Source: Microcaldota archaeon
Lineage (GTDB): Archaea > Micrarchaeota > Micrarchaeia > Micrarchaeales > CABMGC01
Assembly: GCA_021823435.1 (NCBI GenBank)
Contig: JAKANZ010000002.1
Span: 1-37,670, forward strand
Reading direction: 5' to 3'
Length of the DNA stretch: 37,670 nucleotides
The position numbers and the translations under genes are program-made. Position 1 is the first letter of the stretch, and each line of letters opens with the position of its first letter. Below, piece by piece: positions 2,102 to 31,257 of the stretch. A model generated the notes under the pieces. It was not told the origin of the DNA. It did no database searches and saw only the letters and a list, made by a program, of their open reading frames with translations.

Positions 2102-2409
2102 TCTTCCCTCCTCTTGTAGTACTTCATTGACTTCTCTATCCTGTCCTCGGGTCTGAAGTTTATTTCAACTCCGTTGACTATGAACGACTTCCTTCCCGCG
2201 TAAAAGCGAAAGGTAGACGTTGCTTTTACCAGCCTCTTGAGCCGGTTGCCCGTGTCTACTACGAGAGTGTTTTTGCTCTCGTCTACTACGGTACCGTGCA
2301 AACCAACCTGCTTCCTGTCGGCGCACCTGAGAACCCGCACCCTGAGCCCTATAAGCTCGTTGAGCACTATGTTCCTGTTGTTGTACGCGCTGTAATCGCT
2401 AGCTGCCAT
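2098..2409 (-). CDS. rnp1: RNase P protein component 1 (Rpp29/Pop4)
   Basis: Protein subunit of archaeal RNase P, which matures tRNA 5' ends. It is 103 aa, with the Sm-like core LIGLRVRVLRCADRKQVGLH, GTVVDESKNTLVVDTG and FRPEDRIEKSMKYYKRRE at the C-terminus, as in archaeal Rpp29. In many archaea this gene lies between rpl29 and rps17 in the S10/spc superoperon. Here it is the first gene, followed upstream by a divergent promoter region and an unrelated surface-protein gene, so rps3, rpl22 and rpl29 must be elsewhere. Confidence 0.92.
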   Translation of the reverse strand: MAASDYSAYNNRNIVLNELIGLRVRVLRCADRKQVGLHGTVVDESKNTLVVDTGNRLKRLVKATSTFRFYAGRKSFIVNGVEINFRPEDRIEKSMKYYKRREE

Positions 2410-2458
2410 GGGGTTATTTGCTTATTAGTTTTTATAAGGGCAAGTATTTAAACTTATC
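2410..2458. promoter_or_regulatory. Divergent promoter region between rnp1 operon and LamG gene
   Basis: A 49-nt AT-rich gap between two divergent start codons. A TTTTTATAAGG box at about 2429-2439 is centred about 25 nt before the ATG at 2459, which predicts a leaderless mRNA for the plus-strand gene. On the minus strand, TTTAAATA at 2445-2452 would place the ribosomal operon start about 13 nt before its ATG. Assignments rest on the usual archaeal TATA-to-start spacing. Confidence 0.6.
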
Positions 2459-3439
2459 ATGGTGCGTGAGAGGGCAGGTGCTGCAAGTCGCAAGGCGCAG
2501 TCCGCGATGGAGTACCTCATGACCTACGGGTGGGCCATATTAATAATAGCGGTAATACTTGGCGCTCTCTTCCAGCTCGGCGTGTTCAACTCAAACTCAT
2601 TTGCTCCGAAGGCGCCTCCCGGAGCATGCGTGGTCTACAGGCCCTACGGGCCTGTCGATGTGAGGCTAGTATCCTTGAGCGGCATTTGCAACGGGGAGCT
2701 GCCGCAGTACGTTGGAAACTTTAACAACTACCCCGGACCCGCTACGCAGTATATAGGTGTCAACCTTACCGCTTTCCAAAACCAGGGATCAACAATAAAC
2801 GAGCTTACCGCGTCTGCTTGGTTTGCAGAGGACCAGCTGCAAACAAGCAATATCTGCGCTGTTGGATTGATGGGCCAGATGGAGGGCAACGGAGGCGGGT
2901 CGGCGGGCGTCGCTCAGGGATGGTCGTTCGAGGCATACAGGACATGTGACAACGCTCCGTTCATAAGTTTTCTGGCCGGAAACGGAGTTACGCAGGCGAA
3001 CGGGGGTTTGTACGGCATAGGGACTTCAAGCCTGGAGCCCGATACGTGGTACTTTGTCACAGGCACGATAAATGGGAACGTCATATCGCTATATCTAAAC
3101 GGGCAGTTTGTTGCAAACACCGTCGTCACCAGCGGCGTTGCAAATACGCAGTACCCATTCTCCATAGGCGTCTACGGATGGAACGGTTGCCTTACGTGCT
3201 TTGACTGGTGGCAGGGGAGTATAGCCAATATACAGCTATACAATACATCATTTTCAGCGAACGAGGTGCAGCAGCTGTATGTAGAAGGCATAGGAGGCGC
3301 GCCTACGCGGTTGCAGAACCTTGTCGGATGGTGGACGCTGGATGGGAATGCTAACGATTATTCAGGAAACGGCCGCAACGGGACGACAAAAGGTTTGAGT
3401 TATAGCAGCGACTGGACTTCGCAGTACACCCCTCCGTGA
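2459..3439 (+). CDS. Secreted LamG-domain protein with class III signal peptide
   Basis: Predicted surface or pilus-associated protein, 326 aa. After a short basic N-terminus comes QSAMEYLMTYGWAILIIAV, a class III (archaeal pilin-type) signal whose processing would be just before Gln14 by a prepilin peptidase. The rest resembles a concanavalin A/LamG jellyroll: TASAWFAEDQ, WYFVTGTINGNVISLYLNGQ, FSIGVYGW, and IANIQLYNTSFSANEVQQLY, then the terminal block GGAPTRLQNLVGWWTLDGN...DYSGNGRNG. A paralogue with the same layout lies at 33839-34729. Ligand unknown. The start ATG is supported by a TATA box about 25 nt upstream. Confidence 0.85.
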   Translation: MVRERAGAASRKAQSAMEYLMTYGWAILIIAVILGALFQLGVFNSNSFAPKAPPGACVVYRPYGPVDVRLVSLSGICNGELPQYVGNFNNYPGPATQYIGVNLTAFQNQGSTINELTASAWFAEDQLQTSNICAVGLMGQMEGNGGGSAGVAQGWSFEAYRTCDNAPFISFLAGNGVTQANGGLYGIGTSSLEPDTWYFVTGTINGNVISLYLNGQFVANTVVTSGVANTQYPFSIGVYGWNGCLTCFDWWQGSIANIQLYNTSFSANEVQQLYVEGIGGAPTRLQNLVGWWTLDGNANDYSGNGRNGTTKGLSYSSDWTSQYTPP

Positions 3440-3452
3440 GATGAGAAAGGTC

Positions 3453-4697
3453 TCACTTCACTACTACCTTGTCAGATACCTCAACCACACGGTCGACGCT
3501 GTATCTTACAGGATTACCGAAGCTGGTGTTTATTATCAGCCCGCCGCGCTTTACGTCGACTCCGGCAACCTTGCCTATCATCGTGCCCAGCTCGTTGACC
3601 ACAAGCTTGTTTTTCAGTCTCTTGGTGCGTAGCACGCGGACCCTCAGAAGGTTTGACACCACGGATATCGCAACTCCCGCCACTATCGCTGCCAGAGTGA
3701 ATGAGAGGAACTGGCTGAAGTATATCTGTCCGAGAAGCCAGGCCATGAACGAGTACGCGAGCACCCAGACGATCACAGAAGAGCCTATGTAAACCCCGTA
3801 CCTGAAGTTGCGGAAGATGTACCTGTTCGACTTGGTGTCTATTATCCTTCCTATCAGGTACAGGCCGAACATGAATGGCAGCAGAAGGAGAAAGCCTTCA
3901 ACAGCATACGCTGTCGCGAAGCCGGTATCACCTGTTATCTTGAGTTGAGCAAGGTAGTTGCTCGCTCCTATGAAGACGCTGGCTATGAAGAAGACGAGCG
4001 CGCTGAGGTAGAAGACGAAGCTCATGCGTTCTATGCTGAAGCCGAAGCCGCGGAACGAGCCTATCAGTATATCCTCTAGGCCGAAGCCCTTTATCAGCAG
4101 GTAGAGGCCCACGAGCCCCAGCGGCACCTGCCACCCGAAACCCGCAGCGTAGCTTATCGCGAAAAGCAGAAAAAGTATTGCCGGTATGCCGAAGACTATC
4201 CTGGCATAGTGCGGTTCTTTCAGTTTCTCGAGCACAGCGACATAGGTGCTCTCAAGCGCCTTGTTCTGCTTCACAGCAACCATCTTCACGCTGTTTATCT
4301 TTATCCTAGACTCTATGATCGGAAGCACCTGCTCGTCGCTGGCTCCGTCGGTGATGAACATGCAAGAGTCAGCCTTGGTCTGGTCAATCACTCGTTCTAT
4401 CTGCGATGCGACTTCGCGGCCTGCATTATAACCCTCGCTTTCCGCGCCTGTTATCGTGGCTATGTTTACGGAGTAGCCTTCCTCCTTTAGCTCGTCATAG
4501 AGCTTGACCGCCTGGAACATGGTGTTCGCGTCTGTATCTTCCGGGTCTGCGAGAGCAAGCTGGGTTGCGCCGTTGAGGTTCTGCACCCTGCCGATCAGCG
4601 GCCCGCCTATCCTCGTCTTCCTGTACAGGTCATTGTCGACGTCAACGACAAGGACAAGAAGGCGTTCCGACTTTTCAATCCCCCTTGATTTTGCCAT
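3453..4697 (-). CDS. DUF373 family membrane protein
   Basis: Conserved archaeal membrane protein of unknown function, 414 aa. The N-terminal soluble half (1-170) has LLVLVVDVDNDLYRKTRIGG, the NLNGATQLALADPEDTDANT segment and ITDGASDEQVLPIIESRI, which typify DUF373. Residues about 170-350 hold five or six hydrophobic helices (for example IVFGIPAILFLLFAISY). The C-terminal tail (about 355-414) is soluble and may be a small beta domain (VRVLRTKRLKNKLVVNELGT). It converges on the LamG gene with a 13-nt gap. A TATA-like ATTTAAA stretch (minus strand reads TTTAAATATTAC) lies about 30 nt upstream of its ATG. Confidence 0.88.
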   Translation of the reverse strand: MAKSRGIEKSERLLVLVVDVDNDLYRKTRIGGPLIGRVQNLNGATQLALADPEDTDANTMFQAVKLYDELKEEGYSVNIATITGAESEGYNAGREVASQIERVIDQTKADSCMFITDGASDEQVLPIIESRIKINSVKMVAVKQNKALESTYVAVLEKLKEPHYARIVFGIPAILFLLFAISYAAGFGWQVPLGLVGLYLLIKGFGLEDILIGSFRGFGFSIERMSFVFYLSALVFFIASVFIGASNYLAQLKITGDTGFATAYAVEGFLLLLPFMFGLYLIGRIIDTKSNRYIFRNFRYGVYIGSSVIVWVLAYSFMAWLLGQIYFSQFLSFTLAAIVAGVAISVVSNLLRVRVLRTKRLKNKLVVNELGTMIGKVAGVDVKRGGLIINTSFGNPVRYSVDRVVEVSDKVVVK

Positions 4698-4870: not shown

Positions 4871-5380
4871 ATGAAAAGCGAGAGAGGGGACGGTGGAATT
4901 GGAGAGGTCAGCATAAACAGAAAGACAGGCGTGCCCACGTATCCGTTCACCGAAGTTTTCAAAGGCTTCGAGAAGGTCGATGCCGTGAAGGAGATATTCG
5001 GGAAGAGCACGAAGAGGACCCTGAACAATCTGAGGGTCTCGTTGTATAGGTCAAGACGCGGCGGCTATATGTGGATTGACGACAAGGCGGGATGCATCGT
5101 CTGCAACCTCGACTATTTGAGAAGCGCGAGCAAGACATACATATACCTGGATGTTATACACGAGCTGGTGCACATAAAGCAGCTGCACGCAGGCAGAGCT
5201 CTCTTCGACTCAAGATACCACTACCTCGACAGGCCCACAGAATTGGAGGCGTACAGGGTCGCCATCGACGAGGCAAGAAGAACGGGGATGGGGAAGAAGG
5301 AGCTGACGGAGTACTTGAAGGTGGAATGGGTCACCAAAAAAGAGTTCGCCAGATTCCTCGGCCGTTTCGGTCTGCGCTGA
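4871..5380 (+). CDS. Small HExxH metallopeptidase-like protein
   Basis: Conserved hypothetical, about 169 aa. The centre has VIHELVHIKQLHAG, a HExxH zinc-binding motif, followed about 25 residues later by RPTELEAYR, where the Glu could be the third zinc ligand in the gluzincin manner. No signal peptide or membrane helix is visible, so it is probably cytoplasmic. The substrate is unknown. I place the start at ATG 4871; an in-frame TTG at 4865 is possible. A TATA-like CTTATATGA (4810-4818) lies upstream, and an 8-codon open frame starting at ATG 4848 ends in an ATGA overlap with this start. It is probably single-cistron. Confidence 0.7.
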   Translation: MKSERGDGGIGEVSINRKTGVPTYPFTEVFKGFEKVDAVKEIFGKSTKRTLNNLRVSLYRSRRGGYMWIDDKAGCIVCNLDYLRSASKTYIYLDVIHELVHIKQLHAGRALFDSRYHYLDRPTELEAYRVAIDEARRTGMGKKELTEYLKVEWVTKKEFARFLGRFGLR

Positions 5381-11766: not shown

Positions 11767-11784
11767 GACTGGGCCCGCCGAGAG
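11767..11784 (+). repeat. attL: 18-bp copy of tRNA-Val 3' end
   Basis: GACTGGGCCCGCCGAGAG is identical to 15290-15307, where it forms the last 15 nt of tRNA-Val plus 3 flanking bases. Identity stops at 11785. It is the distal copy, without the rest of the tRNA, as expected at the far end of an element inserted into a tRNA 3' end. Confidence 0.9.
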
Positions 11785-12885
11785 CAGCACAGAGGCTCGC
11801 AGGCTGTTGGCAGCCTGCTCGCCCGCACCGCATCCCACAAGGACAAGCTACTTCTCGCACCCCAGCTTTATCTCACTTTCGACTGCGAGCGAGGGCTTCC
11901 CAAGAAGCCCGAAGCGAGCAAGCGCATTGTCGGGCGGGTCATTGGCTTGGCAAGGCAGGATGGGTCTTTGCCCCTCCATAGCAGCGACATCCGAACACAT
12001 TTCGAGGTTCTGCCCGTGAGAGCCCACGAAAGCCACGTAGAGCTGCTGGCAAGCCCAGCGTTCGTTCATCAGCGCATACCAGAACCCGCAACCAAGCCCA
12101 AAGACTACATGCGGGAGCAACTACCGCTGATGGCCAAGTGGGAGATTGAGGAGCTTAGGAGCGAGATCAAGCAGCATTATCTCAGCAGGTTCAAGAGGCC
12201 CAGAATCGCCAAGTACGGAACGCTAAACAAGGGTTTCGAGGAGCAGGAGCTTAGGGTATTCCTAGCGCACATAGACAACGAGAAGCATCGCTTGCTATTC
12301 GAGTTTATGGCTAATCTGGGCTTGCGGGTGGGCGAGGCGGTGAGGGTTAATATCAAGGACATAAAGCCAGAGAGCAGGGAGCTTATCGTTTATACTGAGA
12401 AAGCTAGGCAGCCCGACAGCCTGCGCATACCTCTCCCGCTATTCAAGGAGACGCTAGACTTCATACATGCGCATACGCAAGAGATAGAGCAGCACGAGGG
12501 CTATATCTTCTTCAAGGACTTCAAGTACAGCAAGCATGGTTGCAACCACCTCGACCTTAACTATGTGCGAAACATCTTCAGGGAGTACATAACTGACGCT
12601 GGGCTCGATGAGACCTATGATGTGAGCGAAGAGCGCAATAGCAGAACGCCAAGACGCTTGCATCGCCTAACCACGCATTCGCTAAGACATTATGCTATAA
12701 CCCGCTTTGCGAGGAGCACGAACGGCAATGTGGTGCTCACAGCACACTTCGCTCGGCACAGGAATCCGAGCACTACGAACACTTACATCGCATTGGACAA
12801 GAAAGAGCTTTATGATGTGATTGATGCGATTTCTGTGAATGAAGCGATATTGCTTAAAAAGAAAATTAGCGAAGAAAAAATCTAA
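11767..12885 (+). CDS. Tyrosine integrase, C-terminal part of a split gene (int-C)
   Basis: The frame is open from the att core to the TAA at 12885 but has no ATG before 12112, because the true start lies across the att site at 15230. Reconstructed, the integrase is 392 aa. Catalytic residues visible (reconstructed numbering): Arg207 in LGLRVGE, His324 and Arg327 in HSLRHYA, His351 in ARHRNPSTT and nucleophile Tyr360 in NTYIALD. The first ~60 codons (QAVGSLLARTASHKDKLLL, YLTFDCERGLPKKPEASKR) match a decayed copy at 29127-29333, showing that this untranslatable-looking stretch is real coding sequence. A TTG at 11947 could start a shorter product. If expressed alone this piece still holds the whole catalytic domain. 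Confidence 0.88.
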   Translation, partial: DWARREQHRGSQAVGSLLARTASHKDKLLLAPQLYLTFDCERGLPKKPEASKRIVGRVIGLARQDGSLPLHSSDIRTHFEVLPVRAHESHVELLASPAFVHQRIPEPATKPKDYMREQLPLMAKWEIEELRSEIKQHYLSRFKRPRIAKYGTLNKGFEEQELRVFLAHIDNEKHRLLFEFMANLGLRVGEAVRVNIKDIKPESRELIVYTEKARQPDSLRIPLPLFKETLDFIHAHTQEIEQHEGYIFFKDFKYSKHGCNHLDLNYVRNIFREYITDAGLDETYDVSEERNSRTPRRLHRLTTHSLRHYAITRFARSTNGNVVLTAHFARHRNPSTTNTYIALDKKELYDVIDAISVNEAILLKKKISEEKI

Positions 12886-12890
12886 GATAA

Positions 12891-14051
12891 TCAAGCAGTT
12901 ATTTCACCAAGAATGTGAGTTTTCAATTTCTTCTTGGCATCGAGATAATCGGCTACTGTTGAGCCCTTTAAGAATTTGCCAGATGCCTTGAGTTCCCCAT
13001 CGCTAAGGAAAACCTCGTGTATCCGTGAATAATCTATGGCTTTAGATATAAGCAGTTTATTTTTCATTGCTTCTTTTGAATTTATTTCTTTGACGAGCGT
13101 ATCAGAATAAAAGTCATTATGAATTTTCTCTATCTTTCCTTCGGCTAATATCTCTGCAAGTGGTTTAACAGTTAAATCTTTGCGGAAGAATTTAATTCCA
13201 TCCCACTCTCTTGGCCCTCCGCCTCTTACTCTTACTCTATAAGAGTACAAATCTCCGAAATTAAATTGTGAGTCGTGTATTCTAGAAACGGTATCATCAT
13301 ATGCTCGTTTTTCTATATTTATTATGTTGAATAGAACATCTCCAGATGCTAGCTTACTAAGAATGTTATAGTTGTGTATCGCATCTGCGGGTGGCTTATG
13401 TCTGAAACTTATGATTGGTATTGTACTCTTCCCATAAGACAAGAGTTTATTCAAAAGCAATTCAAAGACTTTTGAGTCTGCATATCCCATATCTAAAACA
13501 ATATTGAGTTGCTTGCCGTTATCCGCCTCTCTTTTAATTACGCTTTCTATTTCATTAATATTCGCCGTGGGTGTGGCACCGAGCGGGACTGTGACGGGTA
13601 GAGTAAGAATATCAACAGGTAGCTGGTTTTGAACTGCTATCAACGTATCAAGATATTTTTTAAAAAGTTCCTTGTTTTTGTATAATTCAGAATAATCAAC
13701 CATTCTGACGGATGGGATAAACATTTTTAGCGTGGCGTGCTGGGCGCTTCTGAAAAATGTACTCGCCGTTCTAATTATATTTGATGGGGCTGTGTTATTT
13801 CGCACAAAGATCGAAATATCATCTATGTTCATTGGCTGCTCATATACGAACACAGGAGACTCGCTAAATAGAGAACGTATTTCTGGAAAGTTGTTTTTTG
13901 CGCGCAAATCAGTTTGGGTAATGGCTCTTATAGGGGTACGAAAACTTGTTTTGTTATCGATTTTAAGAATTCGTGAGCCTATCTTTAACTTTGGCTCTTT
14001 TAGTTTGGAATCAAATTCGTATATGTTTTTTAACTTTATTTTTATGCTCAT
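12891..14051 (-). CDS. Element cargo: 386-aa protein of unknown function
   Basis: Last gene of the cargo operon; its ATG overlaps the previous stop (ATGA at 14048-14051). I do not recognise the family. Visible features are alternating strands and helices suggestive of an alpha/beta barrel: TPIRAITQTDLRAKNN, VDILTLPVTVPLGATP, GKQLNIVLDMGYAD, STIPIISFRHKPPAD, RVRVRGGGPREWDGIKFFRK and SRIHEVFLSDGELKASGKFL near the C-terminus. No signal peptide or membrane helix. AT-rich codons set it apart from the flanks. It may be an effector whose partner is the upstream winged-helix-like protein (inference). Confidence 0.75.
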   Translation of the reverse strand: MSIKIKLKNIYEFDSKLKEPKLKIGSRILKIDNKTSFRTPIRAITQTDLRAKNNFPEIRSLFSESPVFVYEQPMNIDDISIFVRNNTAPSNIIRTASTFFRSAQHATLKMFIPSVRMVDYSELYKNKELFKKYLDTLIAVQNQLPVDILTLPVTVPLGATPTANINEIESVIKREADNGKQLNIVLDMGYADSKVFELLLNKLLSYGKSTIPIISFRHKPPADAIHNYNILSKLASGDVLFNIINIEKRAYDDTVSRIHDSQFNFGDLYSYRVRVRGGGPREWDGIKFFRKDLTVKPLAEILAEGKIEKIHNDFYSDTLVKEINSKEAMKNKLLISKAIDYSRIHEVFLSDGELKASGKFLKGSTVADYLDAKKKLKTHILGEITA

Positions 14052-14632
14052 GCTCCGTGTCGACCCCAAGTAACATCCATGTACAACTTCTTCACCGTTG
14101 ATTTTGTAGTATATTTTCTGTATTCGGGTTTGCTATAAATATACCTTAATAGCCCAGCAGGAGAGAATTCGTCAAGTTCTTTTCTGGCCATTGTGATAGT
14201 CTTGGCCAGTTTCGAGTTGCTTTTTCTTAATTTGTTGAAAATATTCCTTCCTTTACTAGTGAGATAGTAGGCCTGATTATTGGAATTCTTTCTACCTCTG
14301 TAACCTAAATAGCCACTTATAATTAATGCATTAGTGAGTTCGGCGAGTTTGAAACTATATGGCCCTAAACGATATGGGACAAACCGCAGGTCTTCTAATT
14401 TTCTTTCATAATCCAGATATTCGTTGGCAACGAGAAATGCTTCCTTTTGTAGCCTTATGTTTCCATTGAGCTCTTTCTCGCTTGCTCCTATAAGCAGCAG
14501 TATCTGTTGCAAGGCATTCAGTTGATTGTGGTCTACTTTTTTAGAATGTTTCAAACTATCCGCATATGTTCTAATTATTATCTCTGCCTCTGCCCAATCC
14601 AATACTCTCGTTCCATCGGAATAGATTTTCAT
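14048..14632 (-). CDS. Element cargo: winged-helix-like protein
   Basis: 194 aa, middle gene of the cargo operon, coupled on both sides by ATGA overlaps. The pattern NIRLQKEAFLVANEYL, RFVPYRLGPYSFKLAELTNAL, GYLGYRG and YYLTSKGRNIFNKL is that of a helix-turn-helix/winged fold with the F.PY.yGPYS signature shared by prokaryotic accessory proteins, superficially like Panacea/DUF4065. The C-terminal LLRYIYSKPEYRKYTTKSTV resembles the 'YPEYT' tail of such proteins. Role unknown: a regulator of the operon, an antitoxin-like partner or a sensor are all possible. Confidence 0.72.
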   Translation of the reverse strand: MKIYSDGTRVLDWAEAEIIIRTYADSLKHSKKVDHNQLNALQQILLLIGASEKELNGNIRLQKEAFLVANEYLDYERKLEDLRFVPYRLGPYSFKLAELTNALIISGYLGYRGRKNSNNQAYYLTSKGRNIFNKLRKSNSKLAKTITMARKELDEFSPAGLLRYIYSKPEYRKYTTKSTVKKLYMDVTWGRHGA

Positions 14633-15138
14633 TTGATTACCTCAAAACTTTTCAATATGAACACTACTCCTCTTTTCCTATCATTCCCTTTTTCCACATG
14701 AAGCTTAATTTTCAGCTTTTTAAGGCGTATAGCCGTGCTTTTGCCAGATTTAAGTTTTGCAAGCATTCTATTTATCTTTGTACCCTGCGAATTGATGCCT
14801 TTTAGTAAAGGGCTGAAATTAGCATAGCCTGTTGCTGCCCAAGACCCAGCGAATATATCAGAGGGTAGAAAATATCGGTCAAGTACTTCAAATACGCCCC
14901 CGTTATCAAAGACGTAGCCACAACCAAGACATACGTAACGTGTCTGAAAGCGAGATTTAATCGAAGAATTAGAAGATGTCGCAGACGATACCCCCGCTGA
15001 GAATAAGGGTATGCCGCCTTTCGCTTTCGAAGCAGAACTTTTCGCAGAACCTGTGTCAATTACGCTGCCTTTTGATAATTGAATATTATTAGTACCACAC
15101 TTAGGACAATATCGAAAAAATACTCCGTTTCTCCTCAT
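14629..15138 (-). CDS. Element cargo: zinc-ribbon protein
   Basis: 169 aa, first gene of the cargo operon. A split zinc ribbon is formed by YCPKCGTNNI (10-19) and YVCLGCGYVF (about 68-77), separated by a Ser/Ala/Gly-rich loop of about 45 residues that is unusually long. The rest (about 80-169) is basic, with KLKSGKSTAIRLKKLKIKL, and may bind nucleic acid. Its stop overlaps the next start (ATGA at 14629-14632). Candidate TATA boxes lie at 15160-15168 and 15182-15191. Function unknown. Confidence 0.7.
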   Translation of the reverse strand: MRRNGVFFRYCPKCGTNNIQLSKGSVIDTGSAKSSASKAKGGIPLFSAGVSSATSSNSSIKSRFQTRYVCLGCGYVFDNGGVFEVLDRYFLPSDIFAGSWAATGYANFSPLLKGINSQGTKINRMLAKLKSGKSTAIRLKKLKIKLHVEKGNDRKRGVVFILKSFEVIK

Positions 15139-15181
15139 CCGCTCGCTTTCTTTGAAACTTATATTCTAATCGCATCCTTGC

Positions 15182-15204
15182 TATTTAAATACTCTCGCAG
15201 AGAG
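15182..15204. promoter_or_regulatory. Shared symmetric TATA box plus inverted repeat of the element
   Basis: TATTTAAATA at 15182-15191 is a perfect palindrome placed between the divergent cargo operon (start 15138) and int-N (start 15230). It could serve both directions at the usual ~25-nt spacing. It abuts CTCTCGCAGAGAG at 15192-15204, a 5-bp inverted repeat with a 3-nt spacer, well placed as an operator on the integrase side. Confidence 0.5.
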
Positions 15205-15229
15205 CTAACAGCACTTTTCGGTTGTGTTT

Positions 15230-15373
15230 ATGCCCCAAAAAAATTCTAATTTTCTAGCGCCGAACTCCTATTCTGTCGTCGATAATGACGACTGGGCCCG
15301 CCGAGAGTCGAACTCGGCTCTCCACTCTGTGAAAGTGGCGTCTTACCGATGGACCACGAGCCCTCATTTTTAA
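15230..15373 (+). CDS. Tyrosine integrase, N-terminal part of a split gene (int-N)
   Basis: ATG 15230 opens a 20-codon stretch (MPQKNSNFLAPNSYSVVDND) that reaches the att core in the same frame as int-C (DWARRE encoded by both att copies). In the integrated state the frame continues antisense through tRNA-Val and stops at TAA 15371-15373, giving a 47-codon dead-end. In a circular form it would continue into 11785 and yield the whole integrase. A TATA box at 15182-15191 is about 43 nt upstream of the ATG. This is the SSV1-type arrangement of a partitioned integrase. Confidence 0.82.
   Translation: MPQKNSNFLAPNSYSVVDNDDWARRESNSALHSVKVASYRWTTSPHF
15290..15307 (+). repeat. attR: att core inside tRNA-Val 3' end
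   Basis: Identical to 11767-11784. It covers the tRNA discriminator, the 3' acceptor strand and part of the T stem, plus 3 nt beyond the tRNA end. The intact tRNA extends from here away from the element, so integration left the tRNA functional. Confidence 0.9.
15293..15363 (-). tRNA. tRNA-Val(CAC)
   Basis: 71-nt cloverleaf read on the minus strand: acceptor GGGCTCG/CGGGCCC (one U-G pair), D arm with GGTAA loop, anticodon stem CCACT/AGTGG with loop TTCACAG (anticodon CAC), T stem CCGAG/CTCGG with TTCGACT loop, discriminator A. CCA is not encoded. Its 3' end is the attachment site of the 11.8-15.3 kb element. No intron. Confidence 0.95.
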
Positions 15374-28565: not shown

Positions 28566-29111
28566 CTAATCAAACTTGAGATACATCATTATGTTGTCTA
28601 TCTTGAGTTTCTTGCCTCTGAGAAATGCTCCGGGAAGCACGCCGTACACCTTGAATCCGAATCTCTTGTAAAGTTTCTGTGCTCTTTTGTTGAACCCGAA
28701 AACATCCAGTTTTACTACTTTGAACCTCTTCCTTGCCTTCTTGAGCGAACCTTCTATCAGCTGCGTCCCGACTCCCATGGATCTGTAACCCTTTCTCACA
28801 AGTATGCCAAGCGAGCCTACGTGCTTTGCCTCGGGGCTCTTTCCTGCCAGGGTTATGTCGCACATGCCCACAACGTGGCCGTTTACTTCTGCCACGCAGA
28901 CGGCGGCGTCGCCTTTTTTAATCTCATTGATCAGCTCGTTTAGCCACTTCCTTTCTTTTTTGAGACTGGGCCTTCCTGCAGAGCGCGGTATTCCGATGTA
29001 GGGATTTGTCTTAATCTCCTTCTGAACCATAAGGTAGTTGGACATTAGGTCCTTCAGGTCACTTCTCCGAAGACCTCTGATTATAAGCTTGGGTTTTTGT
29101 TTTCTTCGCAT
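28566..29111 (-). CDS. GNAT N-acetyltransferase
   Basis: 181 aa. GNAT pattern: IIRGLRRSDLKDLMSNYLMV, DAAVCVAEVNGHVVGMCDIT, KHVGSLGILVRKGYRSMGVG (motif A, R..G.G) and NKRAQKLYKRFGFKVYGVLP. The C-terminal IDNIMMYLKF is typical of RimJ/RimL-like enzymes. ATG 29111 lies only 6 nt from the degenerate attachment-site copy at 29117, so its promoter may have been changed by that insertion. Confidence 0.85.
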   Translation of the reverse strand: MRRKQKPKLIIRGLRRSDLKDLMSNYLMVQKEIKTNPYIGIPRSAGRPSLKKERKWLNELINEIKKGDAAVCVAEVNGHVVGMCDITLAGKSPEAKHVGSLGILVRKGYRSMGVGTQLIEGSLKKARKRFKVVKLDVFGFNKRAQKLYKRFGFKVYGVLPGAFLRGKKLKIDNIMMYLKFD

Positions 29112-29116
29112 TTTAC

Positions 29117-29137
29117 TCCCGGATGAGCACGACGTGA
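29117..29137 (+). repeat. Degenerate att-like copy of tRNA-Arg 3' end
   Basis: Fifteen of 21 positions match 31176-31196, the 3' end and flank of tRNA-Arg(GCG), and the differences are mostly transitions. It occupies the same place relative to the integrase remnant as attL does to int-C at 11767. Identity is modest, so the call is tentative. Confidence 0.45.
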
Positions 29138-29333
29138 AGCGCATTCAGGCCCGCAGGCTGTTGGCAGCCTGCTCACCCACACGGCATCCTGCAAAGGCAA
29201 GCTACTTCTCGCACTCCATCTTTATCTCTCTTTCGACGGCAAGCGAAGGATTCCCAAGAAGCCCGAAGCGAGCAAGTGCGTTGTCGTGCAGGTCATTCAT
29301 TTGGCGAAGCCGGATAGGTCTTTGCACCTCTAA
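29127..29333 (+). pseudogene. Decayed integrase N-terminal region
   Basis: Frame from 29127 to TAA 29331-29333 encodes ARREAHSGPQAVGSLLTHTA, KLLLALHLYLSFDGKRRIPK and KPEASKCVV, aligning codon for codon with int-C (ARREQHRGSQAVGSLLARTA, KLLLAPQLYLTFDCERGLPK, KPEASKRIV). After SLHL it hits a stop, and the catalytic domain is absent. The DNA is roughly 75-80% identical over about 185 bp (11798-11983 against 29152-29335). It is the remains of a second integration by a relative of the 11.8-kb element. Confined to the gap between the GNAT and ABC genes. Confidence 0.8.
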
Positions 29334-29337
29334 TACA

Positions 29338-29383
29338 ACGGGATCTGAACCTGCAACCAACGGCTCCGCAAACTGCATGCTAA
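29338..29383 (-). pseudogene. tRNA-Arg-like fragment (T and anticodon arms)
   Basis: Matches 31190-31234 of tRNA-Arg(GCG) with about five substitutions and one base missing: the runs TGAACC, GCAACCAAC, GCTCCGCAA and CTGC are shared. Acceptor and D arms are missing. It marks either an attachment-site remnant or a segment captured by the element. Confidence 0.6.
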
Positions 29384-29419
29384 AGACGTGCACGGAGGAC
29401 ATTGGCGGCGGCAAGACCA

Positions 29420-30169
29420 CTAGGGCTCGCGCCACAGCGCCTTCTTGTACGCGATAACCACCAGCGCGATGCACACGCCAACAAGCACGACCCAATCCAC
29501 GGCGAGGTTGAACGTCGATATGCTGATGAAGCCTATGGCGCTCTGCACTATCTCGGCCGCGTAGGTGGTGGGTGAGATGTAAGCGAGGATCTGGAACGGC
29601 TGTGGTATGTAGCTTATTGGGTAGTAGACCGGAGGAAGGGTCGTCAGCACGACAGACAGTATGCCTGTGAACCCCCAGCTTTGCAGCACGTCAGAGGTGA
29701 ACGTTGACAACACGAAGCCTAATACAATGGAGAATATGAACGATATGCCCATTACAGCGACAATTATGAGCGATTGGACCAGCGTGGGATGGATGAATAT
29801 GGCTGCAAGGACAGCAAGCACGGCCATGACGGGTGCTGAGAACACAAGCTCGGACAGGCCCATGCCAGCGACGTACGTGAGCGATGTCGTAGGCGAGCTG
29901 ACCACCATGTCCTGAAGCTTCATATCGTTTTTCAGGTGGGAGAGGTCGGCCTGCAGGCCTATGCCCGCGGTTATAGTGGTCATAATGAGCGCGCCTTCTA
30001 TGCCCACCTGCAGCAAGCCGCCATGACTTACCAAGATTATCACTATCAGGATGGAAAATGGGGCCAGAAGCGTGTTTATGAACATCACCGGATAGTTCTT
30101 CATAGCGTAAATCGAATTAACCAAAACAGACGCAAGCAGCTGGCTGCCTACGCTTCTCTTCATCACCAT
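29420..30169 (-). CDS. ABC-2 type transporter permease
   Basis: 249 aa with six hydrophobic helices, such as YPVMFINTLLAPFSILIVII, GLSELVFSAPVMAVLAVLAA, SLIIVAVMGISFIFSIVLGF and WVVLVGVCIALVVIAYK. The segment LPPVYYPISYIPQPFQILAYISPTTYAAE is the ABC-2 signature region near the fifth helix. It pairs with the ATPase upstream (7-nt overlap) as an exporter, probably of lipids, drugs or surface polymers; the substrate is unknown. The pair lies between the integrase remnant and tRNA-Arg. Confidence 0.87.
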   Translation of the reverse strand: MVMKRSVGSQLLASVLVNSIYAMKNYPVMFINTLLAPFSILIVIILVSHGGLLQVGIEGALIMTTITAGIGLQADLSHLKNDMKLQDMVVSSPTTSLTYVAGMGLSELVFSAPVMAVLAVLAAIFIHPTLVQSLIIVAVMGISFIFSIVLGFVLSTFTSDVLQSWGFTGILSVVLTTLPPVYYPISYIPQPFQILAYISPTTYAAEIVQSAIGFISISTFNLAVDWVVLVGVCIALVVIAYKKALWREP

Positions 30170-31089
30170 TCGTCCCCACCTCCGGACGTCTCCTCGCTCT
30201 CTATTGATTTCTTTGCGAAGCGGTAGAATATGTCCTCGAGCGAGACCGGGTTTATCGTGAACCTTGCCTTTTCGCGTATCAGTTTGTCAGAGAGCTCAAA
30301 TGCTTTCTTCTCGCTGGTCATCAGCTGGTGGCCTCCCTCAAACTTAGTTGTCTTGTAGCCTCTCAACGACCTGGGCTTTACCTCTTGGGTCACGCGTATG
30401 CTGTACTGCTGCCCCGCCTTCTTCCTGAGTTCGTCTATGGAACCCATCGCCAGCAGTTTGCCCCGGTCTATGATCCCTATGCTGTCGGCGAGCAGCTCTG
30501 CTTCCTCCAAATAGTGCGTGGTGAGGAATATGAGATAATTGCTCTTCAGCCTCTGAAGTAGCCTCCACACTTCAGCACGTGATATGGGATCAAGGCCCGT
30601 GGTGGGTTCGTCAAGGAAAATGATCTTTGCCTCGGAGGCGAGAACAGTGGCGACAAGTACCTTACGCTTCGTGCCACCGGAAAGCTTGTGGCCCAGTACA
30701 TTCTCAAACTTGCCGATGCCAAGCTTCCCCAAAGACCGCCTGGCGCGCGTCAGCGCCTCGTGATAGCCGAACCCCCTATAGAGCAGATACGACAACACGG
30801 TTTGGCGCGGCGTAAGCCACGGCATTACCCTTGCCTCCTGGGGCACTATTGCTATCAGTTCCCTTACCCTGCCGGGCTCTTTGACCACGTCGATGCCGTT
30901 AATCGTGGCGCTTCCTTTGCTGGGCATAAGCTCCGTGGCCATTATCCTCATAAGAGTCGTCTTTCCTGCCCCGTTGCGGCCTATCATAGCCACTATGCCC
31001 CTGTCGGGAAAGCTGAAACTCATGTTCCTCAGGGCATACGTCTTCCTGTCGTAGGTCTTCGAGATGCCTTTGCAGACAACGCCTCTCAT
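30163..31089 (-). CDS. ABC transporter ATP-binding protein
   Basis: 308 aa. Walker A GRNGAGKTT (about residues 38-46), Q-loop IAIVPQEARVMPW, signature LSGGTKRK, Walker B KIIFLDEPTTGLDP and the H-loop LTTHYLEEAELLADSIGIID. The C-terminal extension (residues about 215-308) matches the DrrA/CcmA-type tail of ABC-2 exporters. ATG 31089 is preferred over the TTG one codon upstream. First gene of a two-gene operon with the permease. Confidence 0.92.
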   Translation of the reverse strand: MRGVVCKGISKTYDRKTYALRNMSFSFPDRGIVAMIGRNGAGKTTLMRIMATELMPSKGSATINGIDVVKEPGRVRELIAIVPQEARVMPWLTPRQTVLSYLLYRGFGYHEALTRARRSLGKLGIGKFENVLGHKLSGGTKRKVLVATVLASEAKIIFLDEPTTGLDPISRAEVWRLLQRLKSNYLIFLTTHYLEEAELLADSIGIIDRGKLLAMGSIDELRKKAGQQYSIRVTQEVKPRSLRGYKTTKFEGGHQLMTSEKKAFELSDKLIREKARFTINPVSLEDIFYRFAKKSIESEETSGGGDEW

Positions 31090-31182
31090 CAAATCAACGG
31101 TTTAACGCAAAAGTGTTTCCGAAGAAGGTATTTATTTATGTTAACAGACCATGGAGGAACCTGCTTCGCAAGGTTTCCCAGG

Positions 31183-31257
31183 CGGGCACGGCGGGATTTG
31201 AACCCGCAACCAACAGCTCCGCAAGCTGCCGTGCTATCCAAGTTACACCACGTGCCC
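31183..31257 (-). tRNA. tRNA-Arg(GCG)
   Basis: 75-nt cloverleaf: acceptor GGGCACG/CGTGCCC, D arm around GTGTAACTTGGATAGCAC, anticodon stem GCAGC/GCTGT (one G-U) with loop TTGCGGA (anticodon GCG), T stem GCGGG/CCCGC with loop TTCAAAT, discriminator G. CCA not encoded. Its 3' end faces the ABC transporter and the integrase remnant. On the opposite strand an ATG at 31138 enters the tRNA 3' end in the frame of that remnant (RRARRDLNP), like int-N of the other element. Confidence 0.94.

Follow-up and report, generated by a model that had tools for sequence, protein, structure and literature searches.

A probable integrase-less ABC exporter cassette at the 3' end of a tRNA-Arg(GCG) gene in a Micrarchaeales archaeon, adjoining the relic of a different integrative element

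How did a two-gene ABC exporter operon come to lie between an acetyltransferase gene and a tRNA-Arg(GCG) gene in the genome of a Microcaldota archaeon? tRNA genes are the classic landing sites of large self-mobile islands, and a preliminary description of this DNA read the locus as an older integration whose integrase had decayed while the ABC-2 transporter was kept as domesticated cargo. From our analysis of the whole stretch (37,670 nucleotides, hereafter the window) and of related genomes, the ABC insertion and the adjoining DNA of tRNA-Val type stand, whereas the remnant beside them is not an integrase. We consider it probable that an integrase-less ABC cassette (29420-31092, ∼1.8 kb) was inserted site-specifically at the 3' end of tRNA-Arg(GCG), next to the separate relic of a tRNA-Val-type element, and that such docking is recurrent.

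The tRNA-Arg(GCG) locus and its ABC genes

The source genome (labelled G000) is a 78%-complete draft. The locus reads as follows from left to right, and the last line gives an intact element of the same window that served for comparison.

28566..29111, minus strand: GNAT acetyltransferase gene, the left chromosomal neighbour (Pfam PF00583, E 5e-16; start ATG probably at 29111)
29117..29137, no strand assigned: weak att-like stretch of no diagnostic value, bordering the element end on its outer side (15/21 positions vs 31176-31196)
29144..29330, plus strand: relic of an integrative element of tRNA-Val type, consisting of its non-coding end next to att (84-86% DNA identity to the tRNA-Val elements of G000 and G020)
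29339..29382, minus strand: partial tRNA-Arg(GCG) copy, comprising the 3' half with the anticodon stem-loop included (87% over 45 bp, E 7e-7)
29420..30169, minus strand: ABC-2 membrane (permease) gene, 249 aa (PF01061, E 6e-11)
30163..31092, minus strand: ABC exporter ATPase gene, 309 aa (PF00005, E 3e-27)
31181/31183..31257, minus strand: intact tRNA-Arg(GCG), predicted target gene and inner attachment site (ARAGORN; Rfam RF00005, 63 bits)
11770..15307, plus strand: intact integrative element at tRNA-Val(CAC) (att repeat; PF00589, E 5e-14)

The intact tRNA-Arg is a minus-strand gene whose 3' end points left and faces the exporter genes, as had been described. The best tRNA match in this flank, overlooked in the first reading, is 29339-29382, directly before the ABC genes, which aligns to tRNA-Arg with a score of 66 against 25.9 ± 4.6 (maximum 48) for 1,000 shuffles. 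We take it as the predicted outer attachment-site copy bracketing the ABC cassette: a direct repeat of the tRNA 3' end (29339-29382 vs 31183-31257) flanks the insert and the tRNA is left intact, as at an integrated island. This copy is degraded (87%), with a poor acceptor part, which is indicative that the insertion is old. The breakpoints are not base-exact, since none of the relatives offered an unoccupied site with identical flanks, and no free form carrying the tRNA-Arg att was found in viral contigs.

The overlapping ATPase and ABC-2 permease genes form one operon, with both Pfam matches (PF00005, PF01061) above cut-off; the best NCBIfam match of the ATPase is the drrA subfamily and the permease is weakly drrB-like, both below cut-off. 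The pair probably still functions as an exporter. With a GC content of 0.54, the cassette is close to the window (0.51), whereas most of the other cassettes described below have 0.38-0.49; this counts against the cassette reading.

We then searched 79 genomes of the family for this neighbourhood and compared 37 loci in which the tRNA-Arg-EF1beta arrangement, which is widely conserved, was present; with few exceptions, a distance of ∼415-450 bp separates the two genes. Judged by its ABC genes, one family member is identical to a named Candidatus Micrarchaeota genome. The ABC pair occurs beside tRNA-Arg only in G000 and is missing from all 36 relatives with the locus, an absence less certain where their tRNA-Arg flanks are short (contig ends) than where they are long. 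The synteny comparison thus favours an insertion, and conservation of the operon at this site in distant relatives, which would have spoken against it, was looked for and not seen. In G019 and G020, orthologs of the GNAT gene (66-72% identical) flank tRNA-Arg on the corresponding side; the two genes are 0.55-0.65 kb apart, and the space between them is taken by other genes (one for a histidine phosphatase, or one of unknown function). No tRNA-Arg copy was detectable in either interval, a point against the preferred reading.

Elsewhere in the genus, the ABC pair is found at unrelated places in G022 and G016. In the ABC tree the G000 and G022 pairs are joined (support 1.0) and are nearer to those of genera g16 and g27 than to that of G016 from the same genus. 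In G016, tRNA-Ala(CGC) (L144, 6437-6509) stands directly beside an ABC pair 55-58% identical; we considered whether the pair had docked here as well and rejected this, as there is no tRNA copy on the other side.

The adjoining relic and the intact tRNA-Val(CAC) element

The intact element at tRNA-Val(CAC) is bounded by the 15-bp att sequence TGGGCCCGCCGAGAG at 11770-11784 and 15293-15307. Its XerA-like integrase (about 12018-12885) is followed by three cargo genes (12891-15138), one of which is weakly like PADLOC PDC-M19A. The integrase start near 12018, inferred from alignment with G020 and G018, lies inside the element and therefore the integrase is not split by integration; against the integron integrase model it scores only 19 bits. 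The element of G020 (L245) has the same ends and integrase with entirely different cargo; between these two elements, the cargo has been swapped between fixed ends. Within the genus, both tRNA-Val and tRNA-Lys genes harbour integrase-bearing elements of this one family.

The preliminary description had noticed 185 bp resembling the start of this integrase in the same frame; they lie to the left of the partial tRNA copy. The similarity is genuine (29124-29350 vs 11770-11996, 80% over 227 bp, E 2e-52; from 29147 to 29330, 85% over 184 bp, E 7e-56), and 29144-29330 is 84-85% identical to 11790-11976, the block beside attL of the intact element, but a codon-position test argues against integrase coding. 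Between the tRNA-Val elements of G000 and G020, differences at the first, second and third codon positions number 5/6/5 in 11790-11976 (91% identical) and 11/4/58 in the integrase proper (12131-12882), and the relic's own differences (13/11/6) are likewise without the third-position excess typical of a gene. The block, and hence the relic, is therefore a non-coding, hairpin-bearing element end, and the shared frame simply follows from DNA similarity without gaps. The relic holds a perfect hairpin, GCAGGCTG-TTGG-CAGCCTGC, at 29153-29172, and its 35-bp module (29239-29273) is found again ahead of integrase genes, both in G020 and in the G000 element at tRNA-Lys (contig C27). A continuation of integrase homology through 29383-29425 was rejected as marginal only (p 0.048).

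The att-like stretch at the outer edge (29117-29137) had been proposed as attL of tRNA-Arg. The 15/21 match exists, and 21-mers matching the tRNA-Arg 3' region at 15 or more positions are rare in the window; its specificity for tRNA-Arg did not hold up. In the 15 bp of the relic that are in register with the tRNA-Val att, tRNA-Arg(GCG), tRNA-Arg(TCG), tRNA-Lys and tRNA-Val all match at 10/15 positions, and this four-way tie means that the stretch is not evidence for tRNA-Arg; assigning it to any one tRNA fails for the same reason. An ATG at 31138, said to enter the tRNA in the phase of the remnant, was dropped: its region does not resemble the opposite end of the tRNA-Val element (p ∼0.92), and agreement in phase, expected by chance one time in three, says little. 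A split integrase of SSV type with its N-terminal piece at this ATG was rejected on the same lack of similarity, and the tRNA-Val att lies outside the integrase coding region.

Several further occurrences of these end sequences were noted in their own right. A second integrase element lies at tRNA-Lys(TTT) (L207, contig C27 of G000, 2366-4540), with the 35-bp hairpin module GCGAGCGAGGGCTTCCCAAGAAGCCCGAAGCGAGC (one mismatch) upstream of its integrase. The module occurs reversed ∼150 bp past the 3' end of tRNA-Val(GAC) (L208, contig C17 of G000, 5037-5068), where no integrase was found nearby; this is possibly another erased element end. Another hairpin, CGACGACA...TGTCGTCG, stands directly past the 3' ends of tRNA-Pro, tRNA-Val and tRNA-Ser genes (L405, 313-338 and 1238-1260; L352, 3308-3333; window, 15268-15292; L373, near 5150), as an exact 26-mer in L405 and L352 and in looser forms at the other sites. 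It is either an element end motif or a tRNA terminator.

Cassettes at other tRNA genes and their origin

The pattern is wider than the single sister element first supposed; several tRNA genes in the genus carry short integrase-less cassettes. tRNA-Arg itself has detectable 3' copies in three congeners: 53 bp at 100% in G017, enclosing a VapBC-type pair in which an antitoxin-like gene accompanies a PIN toxin; 45 bp at 91% in G016, enclosing AbiEii/AbiEi; and 27 bp at 93% in G022, where the cargo is a GNAT gene. Each has its own copy, no integrase and no tRNA-Val-type end. In the 33 other genomes examined at the locus, three congeners included, no copy reached the score threshold of 30. By sequence comparison, tRNA-Arg appears to be a recurrent docking site in the genus, with non-homologous cargo in each species that has a detectable copy.

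Among 124 tRNAs of G000, G016 and G017, copies reaching the tRNA 3' end were found 10 times in the 3' flank and never in the 5' flank, a count that omits copies with degraded last bases such as that of tRNA-Arg in the window; the swapped-tRNA control gave 0.1 copies on average against these 10. Nearly all the intervals between tRNA and copy are 0.5-1.8 kb long (mostly 0.6-1.8 kb in these three genomes), integrase-free and hold one or two genes, e.g., VapBC-type pairs (tRNA-Glu, tRNA-Gly), AbiEi/ii (tRNA-Gly), an AAA-DUF4143 protein (tRNA-Val), a weak peptidase match (tRNA-Pro) and unknown genes (tRNA-His, tRNA-Ser). Further copies were found at tRNA-Gly, tRNA-Ser and tRNA-His in G020 and at tRNA-Asp in an outgroup genus. 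No homology was detected among the cassettes compared, and in a comparison of their end sequences by eye only the hairpin recurred, beside tRNA-Val, tRNA-Pro and tRNA-Ser. The integrase of an island was sought in the ABC cassette and in the other integrase-less ones and no credible match was obtained (a single one, E 0.99).

Two contigs of G000 (C10, L403; C44, L404) hold the same tRNA pair including tRNA-His (95% identical over 252 bp), but the cassette that follows tRNA-His differs between them; they represent either two loci or two strains.

At the tRNA-Arg locus of the window, the copy 29339-29382 is the common border of the element end and the ABC cassette. As it lies between them, relic and exporter are most simply two separate accretions, and as the relic of a different element adjoins the tRNA-Arg copy, the site has probably been used at least twice, by tandem accretion. 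Most probably, a tyrosine recombinase would join a small circle with tRNA 3'-end sequence to the tRNA gene, and recombination would keep the tRNA whole on the inner side and leave a partial 3'-half copy (29339-29382) on the outer side. The lack of a recombinase in the inserts could reflect loss of the integrase after insertion or an integrase (e.g., that of the tRNA-Val element) acting in trans. We infer a tyrosine recombinase as the agent, its action in trans or its loss, and likewise the order of the two insertions.

One rival concerns the origin of the cassettes and not the insertion itself: in place of mobilisation in trans, each short cassette would be the last cargo of an integrase-bearing element, the integrase having been deleted in a small, deletion-prone genome. 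The genus does have such elements of one family at tRNA-Val and tRNA-Lys, and the relic at 29144-29330 shows that they erode here; we give this origin a serious chance, somewhat short of even. Against it, integrase-free cassettes outnumber the integrase-bearing tRNA elements, their sizes are narrow with no integrase fragments inside, and most att copies are 19-53 bp long vs 15 bp at the tRNA-Val elements.

Alternatively, as first proposed, the locus would be a single element with attL at 29117, an integrase end at 29144-29330, the ABC genes as cargo and attR at the tRNA, with 29339-29382 as an internal duplicate. Its orientation and order (att, non-coding end, interior, tRNA) are those of the tRNA-Val element, with whose att the stretch at 29117 also aligns in register. 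Nevertheless, this layout is improbable, as it leaves the best tRNA-Arg copy unexplained and takes for attL a stretch that is not specific to tRNA-Arg; moreover, the other end of a tRNA-Val-type element left no trace near 31093-31180, and the relatives' cassettes at tRNA-Arg are without integrase and without an end of this type. That the partial copies are pseudogenes of tandemly duplicated tRNA genes, with the genes between having arrived independently, is very improbable, for although tRNA-Gly genes do exist as tandem paralogs, the copies are 3'-terminal, in the 3' flank, in the same orientation and without a clear 5' half, and the cargo differs by species.

For the preferred reading of separate, site-specific insertions, a broader extension would be that many tRNA 3' ends are dispersed integron-like docking sites among which small cassettes (often toxin-antitoxin) are exchanged between species by tyrosine recombinases in trans; we put this forward tentatively and hold it rather unlikely. 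The VapBC segment at tRNA-Gly (L410, contig C39 of G000, 2194-3257) is 99.9% identical to its counterpart in G020 (L425, contig C4), with one mismatch in >1,000 bp, in flanks only ∼60-80% identical, which suggests a recent transfer between species. The identical block begins at the 3' terminus of the adjacent tRNA-Gly(TCC) and continues until its 3.3-kb contig ends, and a chimeric contig join through the 75-bp tRNA is a possible source of the identity.

If true genus-wide, docking of this kind would be a simple route of gene gain in minimal-genome archaea thought to be dominated by gene loss, and it raises the question of what enzyme is at work when the inserted DNA has no recombinase gene of its own. 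At the tRNA-Arg locus, the findings mark the exporter as swappable cargo and not as a core function of its neighbourhood.

Comparison with known systems

In SSV1, copies of about 44 bp of the tRNA 3' half are typical. The att copies described here resemble those of SSV-type (class I) integration in being tRNA 3' halves of similar length; unlike in that type, the tRNA-Val integrase is unsplit and its att lies ∼230 bp upstream, with non-coding DNA (the att-proximal 187 bp) between. A small literature search turned up no other case in which short inserts, free of integrase and rich in toxin-antitoxin genes, occupy many tRNA genes at a comparable density.

Archaeal tRNA-targeted elements with tyrosine recombinases leave the tRNA intact at one end of the insert and part of it repeated at the opposite end (PMC8371274, PMC6563490), with a median copy length of 17 bp in Thaumarchaeota and lengths of 29-69 bp in Crenarchaeota (PMC6563490). 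The insertions here likewise occur at the tRNA 3' end, and their copies (15-53 bp) fall within the published ranges, whereas the segments themselves are nearly all 0.5-1.8 kb long with one or two genes and no integrase. Archaeal integrons and CALINs consist of one- or two-gene units in which toxin-antitoxin and acetyltransferase genes are prominent, often with no neighbouring integrase (PMC9668308). The cassettes here share the short one- or two-gene units, such cargo and the lack of an adjacent integrase, but they dock at scattered tRNA genes and their end repeats are tRNA-derived, which would set them apart from attC-bounded arrays. The mobile insertion at tRNA-Thr of Caldiarchaeum, from an archaeal population, spans ∼1.8 kb between the tRNA and a 5' tRNA fragment and encodes a recombinase (PMC3293823); the ABC cassette is alike in size (∼1.8 kb) and in being framed by a tRNA and part of one, whereas the cassettes here leave 3' fragments and encode no recombinase. 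In essence, tRNA-targeted insertion is already well known, and the unusual feature is that the recombinase is missing from nearly all of the inserts.
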